Positions 29,628 through 55,880 of a stretch of 64,000 bases of DNA are shown piece by piece. The position numbers and the translations under genes are program-made. How positions within the stretch are numbered: position 1 is the first letter of the stretch; each line of letters opens with the position of its first letter. This stretch comes from Nitrospira sp. Its GTDB lineage: Bacteria; Nitrospirota; Nitrospiria; Nitrospirales; Nitrospiraceae. Location of the stretch: positions 372,001 to 436,000 of the forward strand of contig JAVYIN010000005.1 of NCBI GenBank assembly GCA_035968315.1. Direction: 5' to 3'. A model generated the notes under the pieces. It had not been told where the DNA came from. It did not search any database and worked only from the letters and a program-made list of their open reading frames with translations.

Positions 29628-29704
29628 AAACAGCGTCGGTTGTCGTCAGAATCGAAGCCAGGATGGCTTCGCCGGTTCCGAAGCAGGGTCGCAAGGAGTG
29701 CGTT

Positions 29705-30217
29705 ATGACTTCGGGGAGTTCTTCACAGGCACAGGCGCTGAGCCAGGTTCTTATCCAGGAATGCGAGTCCTGTCATGCGCTGCTCGAAACTGTCGAGGAA
29801 GAGCGGCGTGCGATTAAGGCTCTAGCCATTACAGAGTTTCACGATATCAATCTCCGCCGTCTTGCGATACTGGAGACGCTTCAGACGCTGACCCAGTCCA
29901 GGGAAGCCGCGATCCGTGGCCTTGCAGAGATGGCAAACCTGCCGGAGGCTGCAACGTCTGTTCAAGCCTTGCTGGATTGCTGGCAAAGCCCCCATGTTCC
30001 AGCCTTACGGCGCCATCACGACGCGCTGATGACCGTCGCGAAACGAGCGCGGGAGGAAATCAAGCAGAACGTCGTCTTAATCGAAGGCATTCGCCATGTG
30101 ATTGAAGGCGCCCTGGCGGCAGGCACCGCAACCCTATCTGGCGCAGACGCCTACAATCGGAACGGGCAGCGGGCCACGCTTCAGTCTTCCGCAGCCATGC
30201 TCTATCAGCAGGGGTAG
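29705..30217 (+). CDS. flgN: FlgN, export chaperone for FlgK and FlgL
   Basis: 170 residues from ATG 29705 with AAGGAG at 29693-29698; an upstream ATG at 29663 lacks a site. The protein is an all-helical bundle with SQVLIQECESCHALLETVEE, a central RRLAILETLQTLTQSREAAI and a C-terminal YNRNGQ motif shared by FlgN proteins. It delivers the hook-filament junction proteins to the FlhA ring. It lies between flgM and its clients flgK and flgL. Confidence 0.9.
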   Translation: MTSGSSSQAQALSQVLIQECESCHALLETVEEERRAIKALAITEFHDINLRRLAILETLQTLTQSREAAIRGLAEMANLPEAATSVQALLDCWQSPHVPALRRHHDALMTVAKRAREEIKQNVVLIEGIRHVIEGALAAGTATLSGADAYNRNGQRATLQSSAAMLYQQG

Positions 30218-30219
30218 CT

Positions 30220-32214
30220 ATGGTCGGCCTGACTTCCTTATTCGATATCGCCCGCTCGGCACTCAATACCTCGCAGCAGGCGATGGCGGTTACGGGACAC
30301 AACGTCGCCAACGTCAATACCCCAGGCTACACTAGGCAGGAAGCTGTTCTTGCAGAGCGAAGCCCTATTAGTGGTCAGCCCGGTATGATGGGGACGGGGG
30401 TTCAGGCCACCTCCATTCGCCGGAACATTAATACGTTTGTCAATCAGCAGATCACGACCTCGCAACAGACGCTCGGCCGGTTGACTCTGTCGCGTGACGA
30501 ACTGTTTCGCCTGCAAAGTATTTTTGGTGACAGCAACGATCAGGGGATCAGCGCGCGCTTGAACGACTTTTATCAAGGTTTGCAAGACGTCTCGACGTCG
30601 CCCAACGACTTGGCGGCTCGGTCCGTGTTGCTGGCTAAATCCTCACAATTAGCTGCCGCGTTGAATCAAACCGCGTCGGATTTGACCACGACACGACAAT
30701 CGCTCAATCTCCAAGTCACGCAAACCGTGACGGAGATTAATAGCTATACTAAGCAAATTGCGGAATTGAACGGCCAAATTACTTCGGCTGAGTTGATGGG
30801 GCAAAATGCCAATGATTTGCGCGATCAACGCGATCTGGCGCTGAACGAGCTGGCCAAGCGGATCGATGTTACGACAGCAGAAACGTCCACGGGTGGACTT
30901 ACCGTATTTGCCGCGCGCGGGCAAATACTGGTGGATAATACCACTCAGCGTGATCTGACGACGGTAACCTCTGCTGAGAACGGTGGGATGGTCGAGATCG
31001 GGTATGCGATGGGTGGCTCACGGACGATCAGGATTGACCAGTATATTTCCAATGGCAGTCTTCGCAGTCTCCTGGATCTGCGTGATACCACGATTCCGGA
31101 TCTCCAGGCGAGGTTCGACCGGCTGGCGGCGACGTTGTCGAACGCCGTAAACCAGATCCACCGGCAAGGATTCGGTCTCGATGGATCGACCGGCCAGGAT
31201 TTCTTTTCTCCCTTGAGCGTGACCACCGAAGCGTCTGCCGATAATCAGGGCACCGGCACCATCGGGAGCGGCGCGATCACCGCCAATAGTCTGCTGACTT
31301 TTCACGACTATGAAATTCAGTTTTCCTCTTCCAGCGCCTATTCCATCGTCGATACCACCACGGGTGCCACGATCAAGGGAAACTATACGGGGACGGCCAT
31401 AACCGCGCCTTCGTCCGGGTCTCCATTGAACATTGTGACGGGCACGAACGATACGCTGACGGTGACGGTGGATGGGGGAGCGGCAGTCGGCGTTACTTTG
31501 ACGGGGGGGGCCTACTCCTCCGGCGCCGCGCTCGCGCAGGAGATGCAGGCGAAAATCAATGCGGCGGGGCTCTCGGTATCGGTCACCTACGACACGACGA
31601 CCAGCCGGTTTGTGATTACCTCCAACAATACGACAGCTTCTTCCGCCGTGAATGTGACCGGCGGGACTGCACGGGCCTCCTTGGGATTGACCGGCGGGAC
31701 CAGTACGGCGGCGAGTGGCACTTACAGCAGTCCTATGACGGTCAACTTCGACGGCCTCAGCGTCACGGTCAGTGGCGCGCCCGCAGCCAATGATGTGTTT
31801 CGGGTGAATTCCTATGAGAACACGGCTCGTGACATTTCTGTTGCGTTGACGACGCCGGCTTCCGTCGCGGCATCGTCCACGCGCACCGGAGTGCCGGGGA
31901 ATAACGACACGATGCTGCAATTGGTGGCCATTCAAGGGCAGAGCTTTTCGTCGTTAGGCAACATCACGCTTCAGGACAGTTATCGAAATGCGGCGGCGAA
32001 TATTGGCGTGTTGGCCCAAACGGCCGATCGGGATTTAGGCGCACAGGAAATCTTGCGCGATCAACTGGATGGATTCCGGGCGCAGGTATCGGGTGTCTCG
32101 ATCGATGAAGAATTGGTCAATATGATCAAGTTTCAGCGCGGATTTGAGGCGGCCTCCCGATTAATCAAAATCACGGATGAAATGTACGATACCCTGCTTT
32201 CCTTGAAGCGGTAA
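30220..32214 (+). CDS. flgK: FlgK, hook-filament junction protein 1 (HAP1)
   Basis: 664 residues. The N-terminus LFDIARSALNTSQQAMAVTG with HNVANVNTPGYTRQEAV and the C-terminus DEELVNMIKFQRGFEAASRL are the conserved axial segments. Two central modules (about 345-400 and 405-530) are Thr/Ser/Gly-rich. One contains GTNDTLTVTVDGG and TGGTARASLGL and closely resembles a module of FlgL, the next gene. FlgK joins the hook to FlgL and the filament. It is longer than the roughly 550-residue enterobacterial protein because of these modules. Confidence 0.95.
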   Translation: MVGLTSLFDIARSALNTSQQAMAVTGHNVANVNTPGYTRQEAVLAERSPISGQPGMMGTGVQATSIRRNINTFVNQQITTSQQTLGRLTLSRDELFRLQSIFGDSNDQGISARLNDFYQGLQDVSTSPNDLAARSVLLAKSSQLAAALNQTASDLTTTRQSLNLQVTQTVTEINSYTKQIAELNGQITSAELMGQNANDLRDQRDLALNELAKRIDVTTAETSTGGLTVFAARGQILVDNTTQRDLTTVTSAENGGMVEIGYAMGGSRTIRIDQYISNGSLRSLLDLRDTTIPDLQARFDRLAATLSNAVNQIHRQGFGLDGSTGQDFFSPLSVTTEASADNQGTGTIGSGAITANSLLTFHDYEIQFSSSSAYSIVDTTTGATIKGNYTGTAITAPSSGSPLNIVTGTNDTLTVTVDGGAAVGVTLTGGAYSSGAALAQEMQAKINAAGLSVSVTYDTTTSRFVITSNNTTASSAVNVTGGTARASLGLTGGTSTAASGTYSSPMTVNFDGLSVTVSGAPAANDVFRVNSYENTARDISVALTTPASVAASSTRTGVPGNNDTMLQLVAIQGQSFSSLGNITLQDSYRNAAANIGVLAQTADRDLGAQEILRDQLDGFRAQVSGVSIDEELVNMIKFQRGFEAASRLIKITDEMYDTLLSLKR

Positions 32215-32228
32215 GAGGGGCGATTGCG

Positions 32229-33995
32229 ATGCGAGTGACCGAACAACAAACCTTTGGCCTTCTGGTGAATAATCTCCAGCGTTCGCGCGCGCGCGCGCTG
32301 GAGTTTCAACAGCAGGTTTCGACGGGCAAGAAAGTGCGCCAGCCGTCGGACGACCCCAGTGCCTTTAACCTCATCGGGCTGGATAAAGCGTCGGTTGCGG
32401 CGATCGATCAACGCCTCCGGAACATCTCGCTGGGGCGCTCGCGACTCGATCTGAGCGGTTCATTACTGACCAGCACGACCAGCACGTTGAGCCGGATTCA
32501 GGAACTGGCGGTGCAGTTCAGGACCGACACGAACGGGCTTTCCGAACGTGTCAGCGGGTCACAGGAAGTGCGCCAATTATACGGCCTCGTTCAGCAATAT
32601 GCCAATTCCGAGTTGAACGGGCAGGCCGTCTTTACCGGGACCAGCACCCACGGGCGGACCACAGGCCTCGCCATTACGGCACCCGTTACGCTCACCAATG
32701 GGACGAATGACACCTTAGTCGTGTCCGTCGATGGGACGACATCCGGCACCATCGACCTGACGACTGCGACCGGAAGTTTCACCGGCGCACAGTTGGCGGC
32801 GCAGGTCCAAACGCAAATCAACGCCGATTCCGCGCTGTCCGCCGCGGGCAAGCACGTGACCGTGATATTCGACACCGATCATCTCGTGATCGCATCGGAT
32901 ACGTCTGGCCCGACATCGACGGTTGCCATCACGGGGGGAACGGCCAGAGCGTCGCTGGGGTTGAATGGGGGAAGCCGGACGACCGGCGCCTCTCCGTTTG
33001 CGATCACGGCCACGAGCAGTCCCGCGTCAACCAATACCGGCGGCGCGATCGCGAGCCAGGGGACAGTGGCCGATGAGAACCAAGTCACTCTGGACGACTA
33101 CATGATTCGCTTTTCTTCCGCGTCGACCTATGATGTGCTGGATGTGACCGCGCCGGTGGCGGTGACACGCGGCGCGTCGAATGCGGGAGGCGCCTTGACC
33201 GCCGACGCCGGCATTATCGCGCCCAATAATCTGACGCTGAATAGCTATGCGATTCAATTTACTTCCAGCACGCAGTTCAACATCGTGAACACCACGACGA
33301 GTACGACGGTCTCGTCAGGCAATACGTATGTTTCCGGGAATGCCATCGAGTTCGATGGCCTGCGCGTGGTCTTGACGAACGGACAGCAGGGCGGCCCGCA
33401 GACCGGCGATACGTATGCCGTGGGCCTCACACCCAGGACGGTGTTGGCCAATCAAGCCTACAGTGCCGGCACCGAGATCAGTTTTGAGGGGCTTCGGGTT
33501 ACCTTGACGACCGGCAGCAGCTCGCCGGCGACCGGCGACCGGTTTGCCCTGGTTACCGGGCTGCAGTATCAAGGCGATGCCGGTGTGCATCATGTGGAAG
33601 TGGGGCCGAATCAAACGGTTTCGACCAATGTGCCGGGCAACCAGGCGTTTGTGGGGCCCGATGTCGATCTCTTTGCGTCGATCAAGAATCTCGTGACTTC
33701 CTTGCGGACGAATTACCGGGGCGGCATCAGTGAGACGATCGGAGATTTTAATCAGGGCCTGAGCCAGGCCGGGGCCGTGTTGGGTGAGGTGGGGGCGCTC
33801 TCGAATCGGCTGGATGCCACCGGGGCGCGCCTGGATGAAGCGAAGAGCTTCTTTACCCAAACGCTGTCGGAAACGGAAGACGTCGATTTGGCCAAGGCGA
33901 TTTCGGATCTGACCTTGCAGCAATATTCGATCGAGGCGGCCAGCCGTACCTTGAATCAGCTCTTTAATACATCGTTGCTCAATTATCTCCAGTAA
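32229..33995 (+). CDS. flgL: FlgL, hook-filament junction protein 3 (HAP3), enlarged
   Basis: 588 residues, nearly twice the size of enterobacterial FlgL. The N-terminal flagellin-like domain (VSTGKKVRQPSDDPSAFNL, LTSTTSTLSRIQELAVQF) and the C-terminal domain (ETEDVDLAKAISDLTLQQ, TLNQLFNTSLLNYL) are intact. Between them, residues about 150-470 are repeated modules. One (about 155-255) matches the FlgK module (GTNDTLVVSVDG, TGGTARASLGLNGG). Two others carry FDGLRV/FEGLRV followed by TGD and an aromatic residue. Surface-exposed insertions are typical of the variable D2/D3 region. Confidence 0.95.
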   Translation: MRVTEQQTFGLLVNNLQRSRARALEFQQQVSTGKKVRQPSDDPSAFNLIGLDKASVAAIDQRLRNISLGRSRLDLSGSLLTSTTSTLSRIQELAVQFRTDTNGLSERVSGSQEVRQLYGLVQQYANSELNGQAVFTGTSTHGRTTGLAITAPVTLTNGTNDTLVVSVDGTTSGTIDLTTATGSFTGAQLAAQVQTQINADSALSAAGKHVTVIFDTDHLVIASDTSGPTSTVAITGGTARASLGLNGGSRTTGASPFAITATSSPASTNTGGAIASQGTVADENQVTLDDYMIRFSSASTYDVLDVTAPVAVTRGASNAGGALTADAGIIAPNNLTLNSYAIQFTSSTQFNIVNTTTSTTVSSGNTYVSGNAIEFDGLRVVLTNGQQGGPQTGDTYAVGLTPRTVLANQAYSAGTEISFEGLRVTLTTGSSSPATGDRFALVTGLQYQGDAGVHHVEVGPNQTVSTNVPGNQAFVGPDVDLFASIKNLVTSLRTNYRGGISETIGDFNQGLSQAGAVLGEVGALSNRLDATGARLDEAKSFFTQTLSETEDVDLAKAISDLTLQQYSIEAASRTLNQLFNTSLLNYLQ

Positions 33996-37699: not shown

Positions 37700-37703
<4 letters not shown>

Positions 37704-38932
37704 GAAGCCAGCCGATTCGCGACATCGCTTAAATACAAGGAGACATTCACGCGTTCTTGCATCGGATCGAGCACACGCAGAATTGTTCGTGTCACACCGT
37801 ACTGGCCGGGCATGGCTAGATCGATGCGTTCGGGATTGGTATAGGATTCTCCCTGCGGACCGCCAATGATCCTGACTTGCGGTTTCAGCCGTTGCGTCGG
37901 ATTGGCGCCAACCACGATGGCCTGTTCGCCAGTATTGAGGCGGACCAGGCTGCCGACAGGGTAGACCCCGATACTGCGAATGACGGTCTCGACCAGCGAT
38001 TTGGCGTAGAGCTGTTGTTCGCCGGCGAGGAAGAGTTGCCGGATGGCATCGTGCGGGTTCATGGCCGGGCGCCCGCCGCGCCGGCAGACGAGGCTGTCAT
38101 AGAAATTGACGATGCCGACCAGTTGAGCCAGAGGAGACAGTGACGTCGCGGATATGCCGCTCGGGTAGCCGCTGCCGTTGGCATACTCATGGTGTTCCTG
38201 CACGATGCGCAGCACATCTTCGGGAAACGCCGTGTGTTCCCTCAGCAAGGACACGCCCAATTGGGGGTGTTTCTGCAAAAGCCGGCGCTCCGGTTCCGTG
38301 CAGTCGGAGCGTTTTCGTACGAGATTGCGGGGAAGCCTCACATACCCCACATCGTGCAAGAGGGCGCCGGCCCCCACATGATCGTAGAGCGCGGGATCGA
38401 CTCCCTGTTCAACGGCCACCACGAGCGCGAGGATGCAGACATCGAGGGCGTGCGCGGCGAGAGAACGGTCGAAGTCGCGCATTTTCTGGATGATCCCTTG
38501 TGCGATCATCGTGTCAGGCCGGTCGAGCACATGTGCCAAGACCCGCTCGACGATCGCTTTCGTTTTGGCCGGAGTCGGAGGCAGACCGCGTTCCAGATCG
38601 GCAAAGATGCGGTCGACGGCCTCATGCGCCTCGCTATACACCGCTTCGGCCGAGGTCTGGGGTTGCAACTGCTGGGCGGAGGTGTCTGCCGCCGGTTCAG
38701 CGGGCGTCGAAGGTCGAACCGGGTCATTGGTCACATCGGCCACATCCCGGCCTTTGCTCGTATCGATCATGACAGTGGTGATGCCATGATCCTTCATCTG
38801 CTGGATCGCTTTGAGATCTTCAATGACACGGGAATGAAACAGGAAGGGGGTTCGGTACCACGGCAGGTTCACGTCGAGAATGAACATACCCGGGGTCACT
38901 TCATCGATGGAAATACGCTTGGTTGTACTCAT
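37700..38932 (-). CDS. HD-GYP domain protein with variant HD motif (c-di-GMP phosphodiesterase-like)
   Basis: 410 residues. The N-terminal DUF3391-like domain begins TTKRISIDEVTPGMFILDV. The HD-GYP domain (about 140-330) has LLHDVGYVRLPRNLV, HPQLGVSLLREH and HHEYANGSGYPSG. The metal-binding HD and HH residues are present, but the usual HDIGK is HDVGY, so the lysine is replaced. Such enzymes hydrolyse c-di-GMP. The gene is first in a two-gene minus-strand unit with the hybrid kinase, and a sigma-28 promoter lies 69 bases upstream of its ATG. Confidence 0.88.
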
Positions 38933-39000
38933 GAATGCGGCGCTCCTTTACCCCTTCATGCACAGGTCATGTGGCTGCATGATGCAGGATCCCGCATATC

Positions 39001-39028
39001 CTATCGGCTAGTTTTAGACGGTTCTTTA
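39001..39028 (-). promoter_or_regulatory. Sigma-28 promoter for the HD-GYP/hybrid kinase unit
   Basis: Read on the minus strand: TAAAGAAC-N12-GCCGATAG. It points toward the HD-GYP gene ending its 5' side at 38932. It is back-to-back with the plus-strand promoter at 39096-39123. Confidence 0.75.
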
Positions 39029-39095
39029 CTTGGCGGACAAGGGCAGGAATCATGCCCAAGGCTATGAAAATGCTTGCGAAATGCGGCCCAATGGC

Positions 39096-39123
39096 TCAAG
39101 CCTGGACTCCATCCTGCCGATAA
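39096..39123 (+). promoter_or_regulatory. Sigma-28 promoter for the HD-GYP/PilZ unit
   Basis: TCAAGCCT-N12-GCCGATAA, with the -10 element 57 bases before the ATG at 39180. Confidence 0.8.
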
Positions 39124-39179
39124 AGAATCGGAGCGCCCTGGCAGGGGCAGGCCTTGTTGTTCTCAATTGCAGGTGATGA

Positions 39180-40421
39180 ATGTCCACTCGTATTCATATT
39201 GATCAGTTACGGCCCGGCATGCGCATCGAAAAATTAGATCGTTCCTGGTTTGCGACCCCCTTTTTCCGGCATCGGATGACCGTCACTTCGGGAGAGCAAA
39301 TCGAGCAGCTCAAGGCCTCGGGTGTGCAAACGGTCGAAATTGCCAATGATGCCGAGCTGGCCGGGCCAGGCGAGACCGTGAGTGGGCACCCTCAAGAGAC
39401 GTCAGAGGACTTAGGACCTGTTGTTGCCGAATCGCCAAGTAAAGCGGATCCCCAAACGGAAGTCCTCCCATTCGAAGAGGAGTTGCCGGCGGCGCGGGTT
39501 GTCTACGCGGCGGCGAAGACCGTCATTCAGGACGCGATGAACGATGTGCGGATGGGCCGCGATATCAATATGGATGCGGTGAATCAAGTCGTAGCCGACA
39601 TGGCCGACAGTGTGTTGCGCAATCCCGATGCATTGACCAGTCTCTCGCGTCTCAAGCATTTTGACGAATATACGTTCTTTCACTCGGTGAATACGTCGTT
39701 GCTGGCCATTTCGATGGGCCGTAATCTCGGCTTTGTTGGGGAGGAGATTCATCAGCTGGGCGTCGGCACCTTGCTGCACGATATCGGAAAAACGAAGATT
39801 CCCCTGGAGATTCTAAATAAGCCGGGAAAGTACGAGCCGCATGAATTCGAAATCATGAAGCAGCACGCGCTGCGCGGAGCCGAGGTGCTGTCGGGTACGA
39901 CAGATTTGCCGGATTGCTTCTTGAAGCCGGCGCTCGAGCATCATGAGCGCGTCGATGGCAGCGGCTATCCCTACCAGCGGACGGGGGATCAGCTCAGTCA
40001 GTTTGGGCTGATTTCCGCGGTGGTCGATATCTATGATGCCATTACGAGCGAGCGGTGCTACCATAAAGCCAAACCAGCTCACGAAGCGTTGCAATTTTTG
40101 TATCTCATTTCCCAGAAGGGCCATCTGGATCCACGTTTGGTTCAGCGGTTTATCCAGGTTGTCGGGGTGTATCCCGTCGGATCGTTAGTGGTGCTGAATA
40201 CGGGAGAGTTGGCGGTGGTGGGTCGTCTCAATCATGAGACTCCGCTGACTCCGGTGGTGATCGTCGTCAAGGGGCCTGGAAATGTGCTGTTATCGCAGCC
40301 GGAAACGATTGACTTGGCCGTCCAAGAAAAGAACACGGTGCGGCGCACCATTGTCAGCGTGACAGATCGTGCCACGACGGGGATTTCACCCGGAATCTAT
40401 CTTGACTCGGAGCGCGCATGA
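39180..40421 (+). CDS. HD-GYP domain protein (c-di-GMP phosphodiesterase)
   Basis: 413 residues. The N-terminal DUF3391-like domain starts TRIHIDQLRPGMRIEKLDRS. The HD-GYP domain has FFHSVNTSLLAISMG, the catalytic HDIGK (H200, D201), LKPALEHHERVDGSGYPYQ (about 247-265) and IYDAITSERCYHKAK. All expected metal ligands are visible, so hydrolysis of c-di-GMP is likely. It resembles the divergent HD-GYP protein at 37700-38932, suggesting an old duplication. The ATGA overlap with the next gene shows coupling to a PilZ effector. Confidence 0.93.
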   Translation: MSTRIHIDQLRPGMRIEKLDRSWFATPFFRHRMTVTSGEQIEQLKASGVQTVEIANDAELAGPGETVSGHPQETSEDLGPVVAESPSKADPQTEVLPFEEELPAARVVYAAAKTVIQDAMNDVRMGRDINMDAVNQVVADMADSVLRNPDALTSLSRLKHFDEYTFFHSVNTSLLAISMGRNLGFVGEEIHQLGVGTLLHDIGKTKIPLEILNKPGKYEPHEFEIMKQHALRGAEVLSGTTDLPDCFLKPALEHHERVDGSGYPYQRTGDQLSQFGLISAVVDIYDAITSERCYHKAKPAHEALQFLYLISQKGHLDPRLVQRFIQVVGVYPVGSLVVLNTGELAVVGRLNHETPLTPVVIVVKGPGNVLLSQPETIDLAVQEKNTVRRTIVSVTDRATTGISPGIYLDSERA

Positions 40422-41143
40422 ACGACATCTCGACGATGCAGCCATCGCCGGGCGCCTTTATGACGGTCGGCCTTCCGCTGAAATTATCGTTGGTGCTCGG
40501 TGAGCAGCAGGGCATCTTTGGGTCAGCGCTCCTGGGGTGGAAAGAGCATGCCTGGCTCATCTGTGAATGGCCATCGCAGATCGCGCATGGGACAGAGATT
40601 CCTCGCGGAACCGCGTGCAGTGTGAGCTATGAACATGCGGGGCAATTGGTCGGGTATCGGAGCGAGATTCGCGATCTTGTTTCGGCGCCTGTGCCGCTCC
40701 TGTTTCTCGCCTATCCGCAGATCGTCGAAAGCATGCACCTTCGGAAGTATGTGCGCGTGTCGTCGAGAGAGCCGGTACTGTTGGAGCGCGCGGAAGGCGG
40801 GATGGGCCATGGTGGACATCGTCCTTCTGCTGACATGCTCGGAGGGATTCTCAGAGATTTGAGTCTTGGGGGCTGCAGTGTGGTCCTGTCACAGTCGCAT
40901 CACTGGATCAAGCCTGGCCAAAAAGTACGCATGGCCTTTGAACTGGCTGGATTGGGGCATGTCACAAATTTGACGGGTATTGTGAAAAGTGCGGATTTTC
41001 ATGACAGCACCTGTCTTGTGGGGATCGAGTTTCGTTTTCAGGAAATGGAGTACATCGAATATCGCGGGTGGGGAGGGTCCGTCCAACAGGCGATTCAAAA
41101 GTGGACCAGTCAGAAAGGGGCTGAGCATTTTTCCGCTTGGTAG
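40418..41143 (+). CDS. YcgR-like PilZ protein (flagellar brake candidate)
   Basis: 241 residues. An N-terminal YcgR-type barrel (about 1-105) precedes a PilZ domain with both c-di-GMP motifs: RKYVR at 109-113 and DLSLGG at 147-152. YcgR proteins bind c-di-GMP and act on the C-ring and stator to slow or bias the motor. The start overlaps the stop of the HD-GYP gene by 4 bases, pairing an enzyme that removes c-di-GMP with an effector that reads it. A weak hairpin (CTCGC/GCGAG, 41164-41176, then TCTTT) follows. Confidence 0.85.
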   Translation: MNDISTMQPSPGAFMTVGLPLKLSLVLGEQQGIFGSALLGWKEHAWLICEWPSQIAHGTEIPRGTACSVSYEHAGQLVGYRSEIRDLVSAPVPLLFLAYPQIVESMHLRKYVRVSSREPVLLERAEGGMGHGGHRPSADMLGGILRDLSLGGCSVVLSQSHHWIKPGQKVRMAFELAGLGHVTNLTGIVKSADFHDSTCLVGIEFRFQEMEYIEYRGWGGSVQQAIQKWTSQKGAEHFSAW

Positions 41144-41684: not shown

Positions 41685-42917
41685 ATGAAATCCCTCTTCG
41701 TTCCATGGACGCTCGCGCAGTATCTGAATGGCGCACACCCATTGATTGTTAGTGTATTGGATAGCTTGGCTGGCCAGGTCAGCATCGCGGGGCCTCAGGT
41801 CAACCCCATGTTCGACCGCTCAGAGTTTGCAGCATATTACCGACGTCTGGAAGATGAGATGCAGGCCTTAACGGGTGTAGAGCGTGATATTGTCCAGCGC
41901 TTCGTCGCGACCAGGTATCATTTATCCGATGCCGTAGCACCACCAAATAGTGTTGGGTTTCATCACACCATTCTTCCATCTCTGCGGTATAGCAGCATCG
42001 TGCATTTCGAAACCCCAATTCTGTTCTTTTGGCCTGAGGTATCTCATGGAAAATTCGCCAGGGGCACCTCACTGGTAGATCATCCGTTTTATCCCCTGAT
42101 CAGAGCATCGCTCGCACATTTAAATATTAAAAAGATCGTCTCGCATTCGGCTACCGGACTTCAGTACTTGCGAGGCTTGTTTCCCGATCCTGTCATTCAG
42201 GACAAGACTGCGTATATCCCGCTTATGCCATTCGTACAGCGGAGTGTTGAGCGGGCTAGGCAACTGCCTGGCGGGCAGCCGATCCCACCCACAAAGGGCA
42301 GGCGCCGGATTCTGTTCACGAATTCTTTTCATGGCGAGTCTTCCAGCTTTTGGCTGCGAGGCGGTGTCACAACCCTGTTGGCCTTTCACAGGGTAGGGGC
42401 AATGATTCCGCTGGAGCTAGTCATTGTCGGATTGACTCCAGATGATCTGCCGGAAGAGGTTATGGCGATCGTGCGTTCCCCCTACGTGCGGCAGATTACA
42501 AGAGCGTCAGAATCTGAGTTGCAAGCGTACTACGACAGTGCGGATGTGATGCTCTTGCCATCGATGGGGCTTCATTCCATGTCAATCACACGAGCGATTT
42601 GCAGTGGATGCTATGTGCTGTGTTCTGATGCGCCAGGGGCGGAAGAATATGTGAATGATCCGGCCGCCGGTCTGATCCTGAACGGACTCGCAAGGAACCG
42701 CGTGTACTTTGATGATGCTAAGGCAAGCCTGTTGCTGGACGATTATGCCTCGGTGAAGCAGATCAATGTTGACAATGTGGATGCGGTGGCGGAAGCCCTG
42801 CATGCCAGGCTCACGGCCGTGCCGTGCCGAAATCAGGCGCTGTCTTCGTCTCAATATTCTGATCCGCACTTGATGCTGCGGATAGCGGAACTCTTTCGGG
42901 AGGTGTGCGCGGCATGA
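41685..42917 (+). CDS. GT-B type glycosyltransferase (GT4-like)
   Basis: 410 residues. The C-terminal half shows a GT4-like Rossmann domain: RRILFTNSFHGESSSFWLRG, LELVIVGLTPDDLP, then QAYYDSADVMLLPSMGLHSM and AICSGCYVLCSDAPGAEEYV. The N-terminal half is less recognisable. Base composition in 42000-42900 seems more AT-rich than the flagellar genes, hinting at transfer. It probably adds a sugar to a surface glycan or flagellin; the donor is unknown. Confidence 0.72.
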   Translation: MKSLFVPWTLAQYLNGAHPLIVSVLDSLAGQVSIAGPQVNPMFDRSEFAAYYRRLEDEMQALTGVERDIVQRFVATRYHLSDAVAPPNSVGFHHTILPSLRYSSIVHFETPILFFWPEVSHGKFARGTSLVDHPFYPLIRASLAHLNIKKIVSHSATGLQYLRGLFPDPVIQDKTAYIPLMPFVQRSVERARQLPGGQPIPPTKGRRRILFTNSFHGESSSFWLRGGVTTLLAFHRVGAMIPLELVIVGLTPDDLPEEVMAIVRSPYVRQITRASESELQAYYDSADVMLLPSMGLHSMSITRAICSGCYVLCSDAPGAEEYVNDPAAGLILNGLARNRVYFDDAKASLLLDDYASVKQINVDNVDAVAEALHARLTAVPCRNQALSSSQYSDPHLMLRIAELFREVCAA

Positions 42918-43116
42918 GCACTGTTGCCTGGTATGACGTCGCCTCGGCCTGCTGGATGGCAAGTTGGCCGCATTTATGGCGGTTGTGGTGCACGATGAGG
43001 CCTGCAGGGGGCGTTCAAACTGGATATGGGACTGGTGGAATACGACCGCTTAGTGATCTTGCTTCTTCCAAGGCTGGCGGTGTAGGGCGGTATTATGTCG
43101 ACGGGGATGCAAGGAG
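42918..43116. other. Spacer inside the glycosylation island
   Basis: 199 bases with no well-supported gene. A 68-codon frame from ATG 42914 overlaps the previous stop, but has no recognisable family and a poor coding look. It may be the scar of a lost gene. Confidence 0.4.
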
Positions 43117-46100
43117 ATGATGGGGACACCGAGAATCCTGCTCCTGCAACTGGAGTTTCCGACGTGGGCACAGGCGAAAGCTTGGTCGTACGGAGGCAAC
43201 TTCGCAGTGGAAGACGGGCTTCGTGCTAATGGCTGTGAGTGTGTCACGCTGCCGGTACTGAGCCACGTACCGGATACCTCGCCACTGTCCTGGCTCCATT
43301 ATGCGAAAGATCTCGTCGCCGGCCAACGCTTTGATCAAGTCTGGGTGTGGCTTGTCCATAACCGCTATTCAGATGCTTTTCTGGAATGGGTTGCCGAATT
43401 GGCGCCAGTTAGGGTCGGCCTCATTATGGAATCGCTTCGGTATAGCGAACAGGATTGTCTGCGGTGGCCGCATTTACGGGAGCGGGCCGGTATCGTTGAA
43501 CGACAGACTCGCCACATGACTCATGTGCTGGCTGTGGACGAAGAGGATGCCAGGCGATTCAATGAGCAGGGCACCGTGCGGGCTGCATTCTGGCCAGCCG
43601 CGGTGCCGAGGAGGTACATAGCCTCTGCTGTCGAGTCAGTATCCCGTCAAGAGGCGGCGTTTTACGGCGAACTGTATGGGGACCGGAGTGCGTGGCTGGA
43701 AATGCCTGGACTCAAAGAGCTGCTGGTTCGTCCCCAGTCCGCCGAATCCTCGACGGACTTTCCTCGATTGTTCGATGCCTTGCATCGAGGAGTAGCCGCC
43801 AGGTTTCAGTCGGGCTGGCGGCCGAATCCTGACGCACTGACCGACTATGTGAATGGGTGGCGGCAGTTGCGAGAAGCCATCTTTGCGAATTGGCTGGCTC
43901 ACCTGAAGCCGTGGCGTGCGATCGTCAATTTGCCGAGCCTATTTCAGGGCTACGCAGGGCGTGTGATCGAAGCGATGGCAGCGGGCCGCCCGGTTGTGTC
44001 GTGGGAGGTTCCCGATCGCCCGAAAACAAAGGCACTGTTCGCCGACGGGCGAGAAATTCTCCTCTATTCCAAAGAGTGCCCTACGGTATTGAGGGAGCAT
44101 TTAGCGCGACTCGCCCAGGATGCCGATTATGGGCGGGATATTGCCATTGCCGCGCGTGCGGCGGTGCTTGGGGCTCATACAACGGAGCAACGTGCGGCAC
44201 AAATCTTGAGCTGGATTCAAACAGGACGGGAGCCTCGATTCCAAGAGGAGGGCACACCAGTGCATGCGCACACGAATAATGGGTGTAGCTCAGCGCTCGT
44301 TCATGCCGGCAAACCGGCAATGCCTGCGACGACGGTGTTCGTGCTGACTGTGGACGATCCGGCGTTCCCTTCCTGCAAGGCTGGGCTTGAGGCTCAGCAG
44401 GGGGCCTCATTCGTGCTGGAATTCATCCGGAATGTCAGTCCGTTCAGCGCGGCGGCGCAGAAAATGATCACGGACTGCGCGACCGAGTTCTTTATCCAGG
44501 TCGACGAGGACATGATCTTGCAGCCGGATGCGGTGGCCACAATGGAAGCCGCCATGCGTCGCGCGCCGGACGATGTTGGGATGATCTGTTTCCATCTGCA
44601 TGACGATGATCGTGGGAGAACCATCCAGGGGGTGAAGATTTACCGCACCGCCCTCATGAAGGGGCTGGCCTTTCAGGATGTGAAAGCCAGCGAGATGGAT
44701 CTGCTCGAACAAATGGGCCGGCATGGCATCAAGTGGATCTTGCACCCCGATGTGGTGGGCCGGCATGGCACGGCCTATACGCCCGAGACGATCTATCGTC
44801 GGTACAAGACTATGTACGAAAAGGATATCCGGCAGTGGAATACGCTGACCGCCGATATCCGCCGGAAAGCCGATCAATTTCGGGCATCGGGAGACCCGCT
44901 GGCGCTGTTCGCGCTCCTGGGAGCGGCGCATGGAATTGTGCTGGCTCCGCTGGCGCCAGACCGGGAAAAGGACGCGCGGCAGTACGCCTTGAAAGAACTG
45001 GAGGTCTTCACGCGGCTGTTCTTGTCGTCTCCACCGGCGTCGCAGCCGTACGACCCAGATAGGAAAGCCGTGGTGCCGTCGAATCCCCCTGTGCCGATTG
45101 ACATGGTCGCATGGAAGCCGGACGTGGCTGCTTCGAGCCCGTCATCGTTGCCAGTCGGCCAGGGGGCGGCTGCGCGCTCCGTGCTGATCGTGACCCCGTA
45201 TTTTTGGCCGTCGGTTGGCGGGGTCGAAACTGTGGTGGAAGAATTGGGGTGCGACCTTGCCGCGTCGGGTGTCCAGGTGCAGGTGGCCTGCTATCGGCAG
45301 CCGGATCGCACGGCAGCGGTTCATCGCGGCATTCAGATCATCGAAGTCGATGAGCCGGATCAAATGAGCGGAGGCATGCCGGCGGCGGCGCTCCAGGTCA
45401 GGGAATTGGTGGAGTCCGGCGGGCATGACGCGGTGATTCTGATTGGCTCTCCCGTGAACCCCTTGTTTTTTGCCGTTCTCATGATTCCCCGGTTGCGCGA
45501 GCGGCGCATCCTCTTTCAGCCGACGATCAATCAGGAGGGGTACGATTTTCTCCGGGGCCGTCCCCACGTGCAACGGTTGATGAAGCAATTGGCCGGTGAG
45601 TCCGCGGGGGTGATTGTGTTGGGCCAGGAAACGCTGGATGCCCGATATTGCCGCGAAGAGGGGATTCCCGTCACGGTGGTCCCGAATGGCACGCGGACGC
45701 TCACGCCAACAAACGATTTTCGTGCGCGGCATGGCATCGCCCGCGACGAATTTGTGATCCTGCACCTGGCCAATCTTTACCGGGTAAAGAATCACGTGGG
45801 GTTGCTGGATGCGCTGACTCCGCTTCCGCCGGGGTCGCGATTGGTGGTCATTGGCCACCGGACCCATGAAACCGAGTATGTCGAGGAGGTCATGCGCCGC
45901 CTGTCAGCCTGTCCGGAGGTGCTGTTTCTGCCGGGCTTGGACCGGCAGGGGGTGGCTTCGGCCATGCAGGCCGCGGATCTCGTGGTGTTGTCGTCCGATG
46001 CTGAAGTGTCCCCGCTGTGCCTCTTGGAGGCCATGAGCCTCCGGCGCCCCTGGCTGGCGGCGCCAGGTTGCGGGACGGCCGCCAGCCAGGCCGGCGGGCT

Positions 46101-49100
46101 TGTGCTTCCGCTCCCGGAGTTTCGGAGGGCCGTGCAGGTCTGCATGACGCATCCAGATTTCCGGTCTCGGCTGGCTCAGTCAGGGTATGAGCATTGGGCA
46201 GCCTGTTTTCAGTGGCGTGACATTCTGGCCGGCTGGATATCGCTGATTCGTACCGGGAGCCTGGCCAGGCCGTTTGCTATGCCGCCTGCTGTGGCTCGGT
46301 CGCGGGAGGAACTTCGTGCCGAGTATGACCGGCTCAGTGGTGCGAGCACGCCAATTCCGGCTGAAGTATCGCCGGCGGATTGGAAGACGACGGTTCCGAA
46401 CGGCGGTCCAGGGCAAACGCCAAGGGTTCATCCACCACAGCCATCATCACACGAGGGGTCTATGGATCAGGAGCAATTCTACGTCAACATGTTCGTCAAC
46501 AGCCCCCATTGGTCTACTCCTGAACCGAATCCGGATGAAGCGGCCCGCTGGGCCAAGATCGCCGGGTTTCTTGAACATGTGCTGCGGCGAGTCCAAAAGG
46601 AACGTCCGGAGGCCACTCTGCGGATATTAGAGGTTGGCTGCGGCCGCGGGTGGCTGGCGAATCTGGCCTCGGAATATGGAAGCGTCGAAGGGGTTGAACC
46701 GGTGGCCGGCGTCGTCGCCCACGCGCGCAAGATGTTTCCCCATCTTCGCTTTGAAACGGGAACGGCAGAAACCGTTTTGGCGCGGCCGGATTTCCGCCCC
46801 TACGATATCGTGCTGAGTTCCGAGGTGATTGAACATGTGCCGCATCCGCAGAAGCCCGCATTTCTGGATGGGCTTAAGCGGCTGCTGACACCGGACGGCT
46901 ATCTTATTCTCACGACTCCACGAGGAGAAATGTGGGAACGCTGGCAAGCAATTGCCCCGCCCAGCCAGCCGGTGGAGGACTGGGTTACGGAACAGCAGTT
47001 GGCGAATTTTCTAACCGGCCAGGGCTTCACGCCGCTGGGCGTCGAGCGGATTTACGTGGAAATCCCGATGCTCCGGTATGTTCCCACGGTGACGGCGCAC
47101 GACCTCAGGACCAGAAATCTTCTGCCGATTTACCAGGTGTGGATCGCCCAACGGGCCGCGATTACGCCCTCCCTGCCCAGGCCGTCGATCAATTGCGCGC
47201 CGATGGTCAGCGTGATCATCCCGACCTTTAATCGGCCGGAGCGGTTGCGCAAAGCGATTGCCAGTGTGCAGGCACAGGACTATCAGGATTTCCAGATCAT
47301 TGTGGTGAACGACGGAACGGTGTCCGTTGAGGCGGTGGTGTCGGACTTGAATCGTGATGGACGGATCACCCTCATCACGCATGATCTCAATCGCGGCCTC
47401 GCGGCATCCCGCAACACGGGCCTGCGTCATGCAGCCGGGAAATATGTCTGTTATCTGGATGATGATGACCGGTTCTTGCCGGATCACCTGCGCGTCTTGG
47501 TGAGCCGGCTGGAAACGGGTGATTGCAAAGTGGCGTATACGGATGCCTGGCGGGTGCATGAACGTGTGGAGGGGGAGCGTATCATGGAGGTTGGCCGGGA
47601 CCGGCCGTATTCGCACGAATTCAATCCCCATCAGTTGCTGATCAACAATTACATGCCGGTGCTCTGCGTGATGCATGAGCGGACGTGCCTGGATGAGGTT
47701 GGCGGGTTCGATGAGAGTCTGTTTGTGCATGAGGATTGGGATTTGTGGATCAGGCTGGCGACCCGCTATTCGTTCGCGCATATTGCGCAAACGACGGCAG
47801 AATTTACTTGGCGCACCGACGGGACGACCATGTCGAGCCAGCCGCGCGAGGCCTTCGCGCGAACGGCGGAGATCATCTATCGCAAGTATGCGCCCTATGC
47901 GGCGCCCTATCCCCAGATTGTGCAGCAGCAGCGCGAGCGTCTGGCGGGGCTCCGCCGGGAGGCGGCTGCGCATCGGGAGACCAAGGCCAAGCAGTATGAT
48001 TGTTCCATCATTATCCCGGTCTGGAACAAAGTGGAGCTGACCCAGCAGTGCGTGATGGCGCTGGCGGAGGTCACGGAGGGGGCGTCGTACGAAGTCATCG
48101 TGGTAGACAACGGCTCGACCGATGGCACGCCGGACCTGTTGAACTCGCTGGGCGGGGATATTCAGGTCATCCGTAACCGGGAGAATCTGGGGTTTGCCAA
48201 GGCCTGCAATCAGGGCGCCGCGGCCGCCAAGGGCGACTATCTGGTGTTCCTCAACAACGACACCATTCCCCTGAAAGGATGGCTCAGCGCATTGGTGGAA
48301 GAGGTCAAGGGAGATCAGGGCATTGCGGTCGTGGGGAGCAAGCTGCTGTATCCTGACCGGACGGTCCAGCACGCGGGAGTGGCGGTGGACCGGCTTACGC
48401 ACACGCCCTACCACATCTACCGGGGATTTGCCGAAACCCATCCGGCGGTCAACAAACGCCGCGAGCTGAATGCGGTGACCGGGGCGTGCGTGTTGATCCG
48501 CCGGACTCTGTTCGAGGAGCTGGGCGGGTTCGATGAGGGATATGTCAACGGATTTGAAGATGTGGATCTCTGCTTCAAGGCGCGTGAGCAGGGGCACCGC
48601 ATCGTGTATCAGCCCAAGAGCGTCCTGTTCCATCTGGAAAGCCAGACGCCGGGCCGCAAGCAGCATGATGCGGAGAATGGCCGCCGTCTCATGCAGCGGT
48701 GGGGGCACGCGTGGTGGCTGGTGGATGATGACAGTCTCTATGTGGAGGATGGATACAAGGCGGTGTCGGTGTCACGGAATGGACGGGCGGAAAGCGAGTT
48801 GCAGGTCCTGGACAGATCCGAGGATCGGCAGGCGTGGGGGATCGTGGCCGAGACGCAACTGGCGGCAAAGCGCCGGGATGATGCGGCGGTCGTGCAGCAA
48901 CTGGGCAAGTACGCTGACTGGCCGGCCGATCGCTCTGTATTGAAATGGGCCGCGTCGGTGGCCGAGGCCATCAAGCAGCCGGCGCTTACGGCGTCCTTTA
49001 TGCGCCGGATCGCGGCGCTCGACGATCCGGCGGCGGAACAGATTTCGATCATTCGAGAGGCCTTGAGCAAGGGACAAGTCACGGCCGCGGCCTCGCGGCT

Positions 49101-49614
49101 GGAGGCGCTGCTGAAGCACTATCCGTCCCATGCCGAGGGGCTGCTGCTCAAAGCTATTCTCCACATGCAGCGGGAACAGTATCGTGACGCGGAAATTGCC
49201 TTTACGACCGCCTTGAATCAAGGGGCCGACCGCAGGAAGTGCCTGATGGGGATCGGCATGGCCTCGATGGGACGGGCCTATCCGCAGGGAGCGTGGCAAA
49301 CATTTTTGCGAGTCTTGGGTGAAAATCCCGATGATGCCGAAGTCATTCATTGGCTGCTGCGAGCCGGCACGGCGCAGAACCGCTGGCCGGAACTCTGTGT
49401 GCAGCTGCGGAACTATGTCGCCCGCAATCCCAGCGACATCTCGGCGCGGTTTGCCTATGCCGGCGTGCTGCTGCGCGCCGATCACGTCGAGCAGGCGCGG
49501 CAGGAATATGCCCAGTTGGAGGCGCTGGCTCCCGATCACGAGGGGATGCGGGAGTTGCGGCAAGCGATTGCCGGGAAGGAAGCGGTGCTGGCCATGGATG
49601 TGTCGCCGGCGTAG
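43117..49614 (+). CDS. 2165-residue multi-domain glycosyltransferase/methyltransferase
   Basis: Domains in order: (1) about 1-375, CgeB/GT4-like with GYAGRVIEAMAAGRPVVSWE; (2) about 405-640, GT2-like fold with QVDEDMILQPDA; (3) about 688-1060, GT4 starting VLIVTPYFWPSVGGVETV, with LVVLSSDAEVSPLCLLEAM; (4) about 1116-1360, class I SAM methyltransferase with LEVGCGRGWL near 1170 and SSEVIEHVPHP; (5) about 1364-1600, GT2 with SVIIPTFNRPERL and YLDDDDRFLPDHL; (6) about 1628-1880, GT2 with SIIIPVWNK, FLNNDTIPLKGW and GFEDVDLCFKAREQ; (7) about 1985-2150, TPR-like helices. It is cytoplasmic by appearance and probably assembles a methylated oligosaccharide on flagellin or a lipid carrier. ATG 46462 with GAGGGG at 46453-46458 could start a second, shorter product. 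Confidence 0.88.
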   Translation: MMGTPRILLLQLEFPTWAQAKAWSYGGNFAVEDGLRANGCECVTLPVLSHVPDTSPLSWLHYAKDLVAGQRFDQVWVWLVHNRYSDAFLEWVAELAPVRVGLIMESLRYSEQDCLRWPHLRERAGIVERQTRHMTHVLAVDEEDARRFNEQGTVRAAFWPAAVPRRYIASAVESVSRQEAAFYGELYGDRSAWLEMPGLKELLVRPQSAESSTDFPRLFDALHRGVAARFQSGWRPNPDALTDYVNGWRQLREAIFANWLAHLKPWRAIVNLPSLFQGYAGRVIEAMAAGRPVVSWEVPDRPKTKALFADGREILLYSKECPTVLREHLARLAQDADYGRDIAIAARAAVLGAHTTEQRAAQILSWIQTGREPRFQEEGTPVHAHTNNGCSSALVHAGKPAMPATTVFVLTVDDPAFPSCKAGLEAQQGASFVLEFIRNVSPFSAAAQKMITDCATEFFIQVDEDMILQPDAVATMEAAMRRAPDDVGMICFHLHDDDRGRTIQGVKIYRTALMKGLAFQDVKASEMDLLEQMGRHGIKWILHPDVVGRHGTAYTPETIYRRYKTMYEKDIRQWNTLTADIRRKADQFRASGDPLALFALLGAAHGIVLAPLAPDREKDARQYALKELEVFTRLFLSSPPASQPYDPDRKAVVPSNPPVPIDMVAWKPDVAASSPSSLPVGQGAAARSVLIVTPYFWPSVGGVETVVEELGCDLAASGVQVQVACYRQPDRTAAVHRGIQIIEVDEPDQMSGGMPAAALQVRELVESGGHDAVILIGSPVNPLFFAVLMIPRLRERRILFQPTINQEGYDFLRGRPHVQRLMKQLAGESAGVIVLGQETLDARYCREEGIPVTVVPNGTRTLTPTNDFRARHGIARDEFVILHLANLYRVKNHVGLLDALTPLPPGSRLVVIGHRTHETEYVEEVMRRLSACPEVLFLPGLDRQGVASAMQAADLVVLSSDAEVSPLCLLEAMSLRRPWLAAPGCGTAASQAGGLVLPLPEFRRAVQVCMTHPDFRSRLAQSGYEHWAACFQWRDILAGWISLIRTGSLARPFAMPPAVARSREELRAEYDRLSGASTPIPAEVSPADWKTTVPNGGPGQTPRVHPPQPSSHEGSMDQEQFYVNMFVNSPHWSTPEPNPDEAARWAKIAGFLEHVLRRVQKERPEATLRILEVGCGRGWLANLASEYGSVEGVEPVAGVVAHARKMFPHLRFETGTAETVLARPDFRPYDIVLSSEVIEHVPHPQKPAFLDGLKRLLTPDGYLILTTPRGEMWERWQAIAPPSQPVEDWVTEQQLANFLTGQGFTPLGVERIYVEIPMLRYVPTVTAHDLRTRNLLPIYQVWIAQRAAITPSLPRPSINCAPMVSVIIPTFNRPERLRKAIASVQAQDYQDFQIIVVNDGTVSVEAVVSDLNRDGRITLITHDLNRGLAASRNTGLRHAAGKYVCYLDDDDRFLPDHLRVLVSRLETGDCKVAYTDAWRVHERVEGERIMEVGRDRPYSHEFNPHQLLINNYMPVLCVMHERTCLDEVGGFDESLFVHEDWDLWIRLATRYSFAHIAQTTAEFTWRTDGTTMSSQPREAFARTAEIIYRKYAPYAAPYPQIVQQQRERLAGLRREAAAHRETKAKQYDCSIIIPVWNKVELTQQCVMALAEVTEGASYEVIVVDNGSTDGTPDLLNSLGGDIQVIRNRENLGFAKACNQGAAAAKGDYLVFLNNDTIPLKGWLSALVEEVKGDQGIAVVGSKLLYPDRTVQHAGVAVDRLTHTPYHIYRGFAETHPAVNKRRELNAVTGACVLIRRTLFEELGGFDEGYVNGFEDVDLCFKAREQGHRIVYQPKSVLFHLESQTPGRKQHDAENGRRLMQRWGHAWWLVDDDSLYVEDGYKAVSVSRNGRAESELQVLDRSEDRQAWGIVAETQLAAKRRDDAAVVQQLGKYADWPADRSVLKWAASVAEAIKQPALTASFMRRIAALDDPAAEQISIIREALSKGQVTAAASRLEALLKHYPSHAEGLLLKAILHMQREQYRDAEIAFTTALNQGADRRKCLMGIGMASMGRAYPQGAWQTFLRVLGENPDDAEVIHWLLRAGTAQNRWPELCVQLRNYVARNPSDISARFAYAGVLLRADHVEQARQEYAQLEALAPDHEGMRELRQAIAGKEAVLAMDVSPA

Positions 49615-49620
49615 ACAACC

Positions 49621-50796
49621 ATGAAGCGGATTCTGGTCGTACAGTTGGCCCGGCTCGGTGACCTGGTGCAATCGATGCCGGTACTGGCCGCCTTGCGCGC
49701 GCGCCACCCACAGGATCGGATCGATCTGCTGTGCCCGGCCCAGCTTCGCGATCTTGCTGGGATGATCCCCGGTATTGATCGGGTGATGGGATGGGATGGT
49801 ACGGTCTGGCAACAGTGGGCTTCACAAGCGGCGACCGGCATCAGGCGCGATCAGCTCCGTCACATCGAAGCCGAACTGGCCGCCCTCTGTTCCGATTCCT
49901 ATGACCGGGCCTATGTTCTGAACCAGCATCCGCGCGCCATCCTGGCCGGCGCGCTGCTGGCCCAGGAGACCGTTGGCCCATTGGCTGACGGGCCGCTGAG
50001 CGAGCGCCTGACTCCGTGGGCGGCGTATATCAGAGAGATCGCCACAACGCGCAAGACCAATCATGTGCATCTATCGGACGCCTTTTGCGGGCTGTGCGGA
50101 GTCGTCCCGCCGGGGCAGGCTGCGCATCTTCAGCTCCCGGCTACGGCGCTGCCGGCGGATCTGGAACGGATTGGGCAAGAGGGCACTCCGTGGATCGGCC
50201 TCATTGTCGGGGCAGGTGATCAGGCTCGGCAGATTCCCGCCGAGGTGTGGCGCACCTGGATCGTGCAATTTTTAAATCAGGCTTCGCGTGGCCGGGTCGT
50301 CTTGATCGGGCAGGGAGCCGAGCGGGAACGGGCGCGGCAGATACAGGATGCGTTGCCGGCATCTTTGCAGGGGCGAGTCTGGGATGTCACGGGGAGAACG
50401 ACCGTGCCTGAATTGGCCGTCGTGCTCTCACGCTGCCAGCGGGTGATCGGGTCGGATACAGGCCCGCTGCATGTGGCTGCCGCGGTCGGCACGCCCGTGA
50501 TCGGATGGTACATCGCCCGCGCGAGAGTGCATGAGACCGGTCCCTATGGGCCGGGACATATCGTGTGGCAAGCAGAAAGTCCGGACGGCGGTCTGGCGGT
50601 CCCCACGACGTGGCCGATCGAATCGTCGCTGGACGCGCTCCTCAATCGGCCCCCCGCCGCGCTCAATGGGTGGTCGATCTGGATGAGTCAGGCCGATGCC
50701 CGGGGAACCTATTATACGAAGGCGGGTGAAGCGGCGGCGCCGCCTCGCGCGCGAGAAGCAATCTGGCAGGAATTACACCGCGCGGTCGCGGCTTGA
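49621..50796 (+). CDS. GT9 family glycosyltransferase (heptosyltransferase-like)
   Basis: 391 residues. The N-terminus KRILVVQLARLGDLVQSMPV is the GT9/ADP-heptose transferase signature. The C-terminal half has WIGLIVGAGDQARQIP and CQRVIGSDTGPLHVAAAVGT, the donor-binding SDTGPxH motif. LPS heptosyltransferases are the known members, but GT9 proteins in flagellar islands can glycosylate flagellin. It is 6 bases after the giant gene and 7 bases before the CgeB-like gene. Confidence 0.87.
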   Translation: MKRILVVQLARLGDLVQSMPVLAALRARHPQDRIDLLCPAQLRDLAGMIPGIDRVMGWDGTVWQQWASQAATGIRRDQLRHIEAELAALCSDSYDRAYVLNQHPRAILAGALLAQETVGPLADGPLSERLTPWAAYIREIATTRKTNHVHLSDAFCGLCGVVPPGQAAHLQLPATALPADLERIGQEGTPWIGLIVGAGDQARQIPAEVWRTWIVQFLNQASRGRVVLIGQGAERERARQIQDALPASLQGRVWDVTGRTTVPELAVVLSRCQRVIGSDTGPLHVAAAVGTPVIGWYIARARVHETGPYGPGHIVWQAESPDGGLAVPTTWPIESSLDALLNRPPAALNGWSIWMSQADARGTYYTKAGEAAAPPRAREAIWQELHRAVAA

Positions 50797-50803
50797 GGAA
50801 TAT

Positions 50804-55052: not shown

Positions 55053-55880
55053 ATGGCACTTATCATTAACAACAACCCGGCGTCGATTGCAGCCCAGAGG
55101 AACCTGTCAGTCAACACCGGGGGCTTGCAGCGGTCGGTCGAACGGCTCTCATCCGGCTTGCGCATCACCCGCGCCGCGGATGATGCCGCCGGTCTCGGTT
55201 TGTCCGAGTCGTTGCGCGCTCAGGTTCGCAGTATCAATCAGGCGACCCGGAACGCCTCCGACGGCATCAGCTTGACGCAGATCGCCGACGGCGCGGCCGC
55301 CACGATCGGGTCCTTGCTGTCTCGTATGCGCGAACTGTCGTCACAGTCCGCCAGCGGCACGGTCGGCGCCACCGAACGTTCGTACATCGATCAGGAGTTC
55401 GTGGCGTTGCGGTCGGAAATCGATCGTATTGCGCAGACCACGGAATTCAACGGCCAGGCGCTGACGAGCGGCAGCTCGATCACGTTCTCCGTGCAGATCG
55501 GCTTCCGGAGCGGTTCCGGCAACACGTTGTCGCTGGACTTGAACGACATCTCGCTCTCGTCCTTGAGCATGAGCTCGGTGAACGTGTCCACCTCTGCGGC
55601 GGCGCAGAGCGCGTTGGGAAACATCGACAATGCGATCAGCGCCGTGGCGACGGCTCGCGCCGAATACGGGTCACTCCAGAACCGGTTCGAAGCGACCATT
55701 TCCAACCTGCAGATCACGAGTGAAAACCTCACGGCTGCAGAGTCGCGCATCCGCGATGCGGACGTGGCGTATGAAACCTCGCAATTCACCAAGAACCAGA
55801 TCCTGGTGCAGACCGGTATCTCTGTGCTCGCACAGGCGAATACCTTGCCGCAACAGGCGCTGGCCTTGTTGAGAGGTTAG
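55053..55880 (+). CDS. fliC: FliC, flagellin
   Basis: 275 residues, a short flagellin. The conserved N-terminal D0/D1 starts ALIINNNPASIAAQRNLSV, with SSGLRITRAADDAAGLGLSE; the C-terminus has YETSQFTKNQILVQTGISVL and ends QQALALLRG. The central variable domain is almost absent (about 175-195), so surface Ser/Thr for glycosylation would lie in D1. It is the only flagellin gene in the window. A sigma-28 promoter precedes it and a strong hairpin follows. Confidence 0.98.
   Translation: MALIINNNPASIAAQRNLSVNTGGLQRSVERLSSGLRITRAADDAAGLGLSESLRAQVRSINQATRNASDGISLTQIADGAAATIGSLLSRMRELSSQSASGTVGATERSYIDQEFVALRSEIDRIAQTTEFNGQALTSGSSITFSVQIGFRSGSGNTLSLDLNDISLSSLSMSSVNVSTSAAAQSALGNIDNAISAVATARAEYGSLQNRFEATISNLQITSENLTAAESRIRDADVAYETSQFTKNQILVQTGISVLAQANTLPQQALALLRG

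Follow-up and report, generated by a model that had tools for sequence, protein, structure and literature searches.

The 64,000-nucleotide stretch analyzed here (the window) comes from a Nitrospira sp. genome (assembly GCA_035968315.1, contig JAVYIN010000005.1, positions 372,001 to 436,000) and carries flgK and flgL, the genes for hook-associated proteins 1 and 3, which lie 14 bases apart in the order flgN, flgK, flgL. The original prediction, made from the DNA letters alone, had placed two open reading frames (ORFs) here, including a FlgL of 588 residues, and both were present as described, at 664 and 588 amino acids (aa). FlgK scored 361.3 bits against TIGR02492 (cut-off, 170.75) and has the helical D1 region PF22638; FlgL scored 177.7 bits against TIGR02550 (cut-off, 127.2), has flagellin-like ends, and gave a structure model whose top matches were hook-filament junction chains and FlgL (Z up to 18.0). 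Each is a genuine member of its family.

30220..32214, + strand: flgK, hook-associated protein 1, 664 aa (TIGR02492, E=9.7e-108; PF22638, E=7.7e-68)
32229..33995, + strand: flgL, hook-associated protein 3, 588 aa (TIGR02550, E=4.3e-52; Flagellin_N and Flagellin_C)
29663..30217, + strand: flgN, export chaperone of FlgK and FlgL, directly 5' of flgK (PF05130, E=3.3e-17)

FlgK and FlgL share two different modules. The original prediction had described one module accompanied by YxIxFSS and F(D/E)GLxV segments; the sharing was borne out, but the segments proved to form a second domain, D2, distinct from the module called GTND here. GTND spans about 100 residues and carries, in both proteins, the motif GTNDTLTVTVDG / GTNDTLVVSVDG together with TGGTARASLGL.

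31420..31698, + strand: GTND module within FlgK D2, aa 401-493 (BLASTP, alignment, shuffles; predicted strand-strand-helix-strand-strand-strand)
32679..32972, + strand: GTND module at the FlgL D1-D2 boundary, aa 151-248 (BLASTP, alignment, shuffles; similar predicted strand/helix order)

In the BLASTP alignment of FlgK with FlgL, 42% of residues were identical across 144 aa (E=3e-19). The two GTND modules reached a Smith-Waterman score of 184, the highest of 2000 composition shuffles was 83, and the FlgK module scored at most 64 against other FlgL windows; the shuffles ruled out low-complexity chance similarity, and the common motifs claimed earlier were thereby confirmed. One central helix with strands on both sides is predicted in the models of both copies. 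At 93 residues, the FlgK module of this genome is the shortest among 36 FlgK copies (the rest have 101-104), the cause being two small deletions. No Pfam family dedicated to GTND emerged here, and a search for more copies in this genome returned the FlgK and FlgL copies only; its FliD (56334-57713) and flagellin (55053-55880) were absent from the GTND matches. Between flgK and flgL of this genome, blastn found nothing at E<=1e-3, so the module sharing is old here. Recent duplication in this genome was ruled out, DNA likeness being limited to short, chance-like pieces.

31288..31407, + strand: FlgK D2-like, first half, aa 357-396, YxIxFSS (alignment, profile, shuffle control)
31717..31815, + strand: FlgK D2-like, second half, aa 500-532, FDGLxV (mapping; PF21158 sub-threshold at aa 500-530)
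33078..33173, + strand: FlgL outer D2, first half, aa 284-315 (mapping; PF21158)
33225..33320, + strand: FlgL inner D2, first half, aa 333-364 (mapping; shuffle control)
33324..33425, + strand: FlgL inner D2, second half, aa 366-399, FDGLRV (mapping)
33453..33560, + strand: FlgL outer D2, second half, aa 409-444, FEGLRV (mapping; 14 standard deviations over shuffles versus the inner half)

The other element common to both proteins, YxIxFSS...FDGLxV, is the D2 beta-sandwich of the FlgK type, PF21158, which matched FlgL 33000-33570 with 31.5 bits (cut-off, 24.2) and the whole proteins below that cut-off (17.9 bits for FlgK, 16.7 for FlgL). YxIxFSS and F(D/E)GLxV occur once each in FlgK and twice each in FlgL, and every FlgK-FlgL and FlgL-FlgL pairing of D2 halves scored above all 2000 shuffles. 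The domain map of FlgK is core, D2a, (GTND), D2b, core, and that of FlgL, across the Nitrospiraceae GTND proteins mapped, is core, GTND, D2a, D2a', D2b', D2b, core. Because the halves run a-a'-b'-b and the middle a'-b' is a contiguous D2 of normal size, FlgL reads from its sequence as one D2 nested in the loop between the halves of another D2. The earlier suggestion of shuffling or duplication was supported for GTND but not for the YxIxFSS/FDGL part: that both FlgK and FlgL have a D2 had been described before (PMC6155364, available text), and D2 needs no recent shuffling. D2 sharing is ordinary; the nesting in FlgL is the exception.

A survey of presence and absence across the phylum matched the module profile in 59 of 295 Nitrospirota genomes, in varying hosts. 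GTND was found in 36 of the 40 genomes of genus g1, always as two copies, and the same 36 are the genomes with FlgK; in the order of genome G137, 16 of 18 genomes had a match. Elsewhere in the Nitrospirota the hosts are FlgL, FliD, FlgE and FlgK in varying combinations, FliD and FlgE being identified by Pfam. Genomes of f6 and f18 have GTND in FlgL plus a FliD-length ORF; the two such ORFs scanned (L054, L061) are FliD by Pfam, and those of L057, L063 and L065 are FliD by likeness only. Six f6/f9 genomes from the phylum search carry GTND in FlgL and encode a FlgK of 550-591 aa; the three f6/f9 FlgK proteins mapped in full had a D2 half and no GTND. More distant GTND relatives occur in FlgK, FlgL, FliD and FlgE of f21. 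In seven FlgL proteins (L017, L018, L021, L073-L076), two further GTND-like modules precede D2b' inside the inner D2, the same loop position as GTND in FlgK. A lipoprotein-like ORF (L058, 154-2493) that combines Ig-like with fibronectin type III domains also has a GTND-like module, so GTND is not limited to flagellar proteins. A plasmid search for the module returned none.

In the two genomes of sister family f2 that were mapped, FlgK and FlgL have one D2 each and lack GTND; both proteins of a bare sister clade lack GTND and D2 alike; and in the 13 GTND-free genomes of the family that were mapped, D2 is missing from FlgK and FlgL as well. A single, joint loss of D2 in the GTND-free genomes of the family is likely, because f2 keeps D2 in both proteins. 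In group g4 (L093-L097), some genomes have a bare FlgK of ~470-490 aa and FlgL of ~300-325 aa and others are fully elaborated; their cores fall in different clades, so that either the grouping or the flgKL block has a different history. The close FlgL relatives among the matches listed are labeled Nitrospira, Nitrospiraceae or Nitrospirae, with the single exception of a Nitrosospira bin: L013 has Nitrospira-type flgKL on a contig named uncultured Nitrosospira, a bin label that is probably wrong.

The insertion sites of GTND differ, inside D2 in FlgK and before D2 in FlgL, and from this it follows that GTND was not inherited from a FlgK-FlgL ancestor and was inserted separately. Descent of both modules from such an ancestor, with retention by mutual packing, is very unlikely as an account of the whole: D2 is found in both proteins of f2 and in Xanthomonas FlgL and Burkholderia FlgK (PMC6155364, available text), but GTND sits at two different sites, is missing from f6/f9 FlgK while f6/f9 FlgL have it, and is absent along with D2 from both proteins of the bare sister clade. 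Common inheritance is true for D2 and not for GTND, for which it is unlikely unless losses in many lineages are assumed.

Module trees were computed on two sets. The main tree held 54 copies, leaving out the two chimeric FlgL modules described below, long branches, and extra FlgL modules 2 and 3, with the rest thinned; the full tree held 109 copies on 104 columns, with modules of <60 residues skipped. In the 54-copy tree the FlgK copies formed one clade (support 97/94), as did the Nitrospiraceae FlgL copies (98/85), and these two together with the f6/f9 FlgL copies were separate from the FliD copies (100/98). This grouping bears on the proposal that FlgK and FlgL took GTND independently from an outside pool, for example phage sheath or other flagellar genes. 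Such a pool could be drawn from FliD, FlgE, the lipoprotein-like ORF or DUF3383 proteins, which we take to be tail sheaths (compare the phrog tail-sheath row, E=0.084), all of which hold GTND, and in the 109-copy tree the f21 FlgK copies are placed elsewhere than those of Nitrospiraceae FlgK. Yet independent uptake is unlikely, given that the Nitrospiraceae FlgK and FlgL copies stand together against FliD and that the searches made found no closer phage relative.

The flgL modules of two other Nitrospiraceae genomes, L018 and L075, are chimeric: about 160 bases at the 5' end are flgK-type, including two small insertions typical of flgK, and the remainder is flgL-type. In L018 and L075, respectively, flgK-type informative sites numbered 42/49 and 42/47 in the 5' part and 11/54 and 7/53 in the 3' part. 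None of 5000 permutations was as extreme in either relative, and the same test was not significant in any of four sister controls. Blastn of flgK against flgL gave 78% over 252 bases for L018 and, for L075, 75% over 220; the other genomes examined yielded no alignment, or pieces that were shorter and weaker. L018 and L075 belong to different subclades in which the other members are not chimeric, so the conversion may have happened once, long ago, or twice; the tract identities do not decide between the two. The chimeras, the separate sites and the 100/98 grouping support module exchange between the adjacent flgK and flgL genes, as the original prediction had supposed for these neighbors. In the open-licence literature searched we found nothing on gene conversion in hook-associated proteins or on FlgK/FlgL domain shuffling, and nothing by title on this topic for Nitrospira FlgK/FlgL.

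Module identity, insertion sites, presence and absence, and the chimeras are observations; beside them we set a history that we regard as quite probable, in which the FlgK/FlgL core carries D2 plus a mobile GTND that was copied between the two genes. FlgK and FlgL would each consist of a conserved D0-D1 core with two kinds of surface domain, D2 and GTND, and in FlgL a second D2 would have entered the loop that separates the two halves of the first. GTND would be a mobile insert of flagellar axial proteins (FlgL, FliD, FlgE and FlgK), similar to the insertion domain of myophage sheaths. In the ancestor of part of the Nitrospiraceae it would have been copied into the FlgK D2 loop, most likely from the adjacent flgL; copying from flgL to flgK in early Nitrospiraceae is the simplest reading, and we infer flgL as the donor because its copies are more widely spread. 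Later, part of the module would have been copied from flgK to flgL in the two relatives.

Several results weigh against this history or its phage component. The order among the FlgK, f1 (Nitrospiraceae) FlgL and f6/f9 FlgL groups was left open by the approximately unbiased test (p-AU 0.617), and the 109-copy tree, which includes the chimeras, was less tidy, with FlgK copies needing 4 changes. The structure models were poor overall (mean predicted local distance difference test [pLDDT] score, 57.1 and 51.8), and ten-residue blocks of the GTND part had pLDDT values of 51-84 in FlgL and 42-83 in FlgK. DUF3383 (PF11863) matched the FlgK module at E=6.3e-8 with 32.4 bits, under its cut-off of 34.9; tblastn of the FlgL module against phages found one phage (E=0.02), and FlgK-type and inserted modules found no match. 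FlgK and FlgL lengths correlated over 55 genera (rho 0.36, p 0.007) but not in the 46 genera outside the family (rho 0.10, p 0.53). The length sample was 102 of the 178 FlgK-bearing genomes, among those listed; one genome stood for genus g1, and genus g4 entered as two groups according to state. The sample excluded two genomes whose FlgL is truncated by a contig end and retained the odd G208 (472 aa).

Among the 66 FlgK-bearing genomes of the family, GTND is in both proteins in 44, in neither in 22 and in one only in 0. In a tree of the FlgK and FlgL cores, built from the 46 of 58 loci holding both core parts, all GTND-bearing Nitrospiraceae rows formed one group (88/67), so their joint presence is a single event, leaving 1 independent pair. 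Co-occurrence, the one indirect sign of the common binding or decoration role that the original prediction had thought possible, was accordingly ruled out as support for functional coupling, as it reflects one change on the tree.

As for function, the modules would lie on the outside of the hook-filament junction, like solved D2 domains, and may make the FlgK and FlgL rings stiffer, or decorate them, through contact between like domains. They could alternatively be glycan acceptors, which we consider quite unlikely: the modules are Ser- and Thr-rich, and a large cluster of glycosyltransferase ORFs (41685-54279) lies between flgKL and the flagellin gene, but that cluster may serve flagellin or the cell surface instead. 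The cluster contains a 2165-residue ORF (43117-49614) that combines glycosyltransferase domains of families 1 and 2 with a methyltransferase domain and TPR repeats. The flagellin itself (55053-55880) has only 275 residues, comprising N and C helical regions with little room for outer domains, in contrast to the enlarged junction proteins. At 37700-41143, beside the flagellar genes, two DUF3391/HD_5 proteins, one encoded on each strand, accompany a YcgR-like PilZ protein and suggest cyclic-di-GMP control.

More broadly, GTND may be a general, exchangeable outer domain of FlgE, FlgK, FlgL, FliD and myophage sheaths that repeatedly enters the same permissive D2 loop and that flgK and flgL now and then exchange through gene conversion. 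We hold this wider view tentatively, at somewhat less than even likelihood; if it is true, surface properties of the junction pass from one gene to its neighbor. The outer domains of flagellar proteins are highly variable and their origin is seldom visible. Here several steps can be seen: sharing between adjacent genes at separate sites, one D2 nested in another, and partial copying in relatives.

The D2 halves have the same motifs as those of Xanthomonas FlgL and Burkholderia FlgK (PF21158). The available text on Xanthomonas FlgL likens its D2 to the FlgK D2 and puts forward that like D2 domains touch one another (PMC6155364), and a second D2-like domain, D3, is described for Burkholderia FlgK in the available text of PMC5691160. 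Unlike these known proteins, Nitrospira FlgK has its D2 split by GTND, and Nitrospira FlgL has two D2 domains in nested order.

For GTND the comparisons are with phage sheaths, flagellins and FliD. DUF3383 was matched by 11 of 21 GTND modules, although in whole-protein terms the FlgK match covered only profile positions 108-194 of 493; the phage protein found with the FlgL module is itself a DUF3383 protein (E=1e-94). A scan of viral contigs with the module profile confirmed none, sequence searches of the PDB with module profiles or the FlgK module gave nothing credible, and Foldseek of the FlgK model reached a cyanophage sheath at E=1.0 only. NCBIfam matches were weak and mixed (7 of 21 members; best E=0.0001; one a FliD model), a profile-profile match of GTND to the Flagellin_IN stretch of FliD was weak (probability 30.6%), and PF07196 (Flagellin_IN) had no match in GTND modules. 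By structure, the FlgK model matched an algal virus capsid protein with its residues 401-489 (Z 8.4) and, with its residues 396-498, residues 181-276 of the outer domain of Vibrio cholerae FlaA (9n8g; Z 6.7, 3.1 Å). Identity to FlaA was 16%, and a Z of this size may reflect nothing beyond a common arrangement.

The sheath of phage XM1 has an insertion domain that resembles the GTND fold: residues 395-499 of the low-confidence FlgK model lie on residues 106-217 of 7kh1_A6 (Z 8.7, 96 residues, 2.6 Å, 26% identity), a chain that from its length would be gp6. Given the overall weakness of the model and the lack of hits in the other phage searches, a relationship between GTND and the myophage tail-sheath insertion domain of the DUF3383 type is likely, not certain. 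The Nitrospira host protein differs from XM1 in being a junction protein and not a sheath, and in its DUF3383 score just below the Pfam cut-off. According to the available text of PMC10457771, the gp6 insertion domain is unique to that phage, is similar to FliD D3 and is thought to derive from the host cap protein. In f6, f18 and f21 genomes, FliD-type proteins carry GTND or GTND-like modules, a point of comparison with the FliD D2/D3 domains, and the remark on XM1 gains context from related modules spread over four flagellar proteins.

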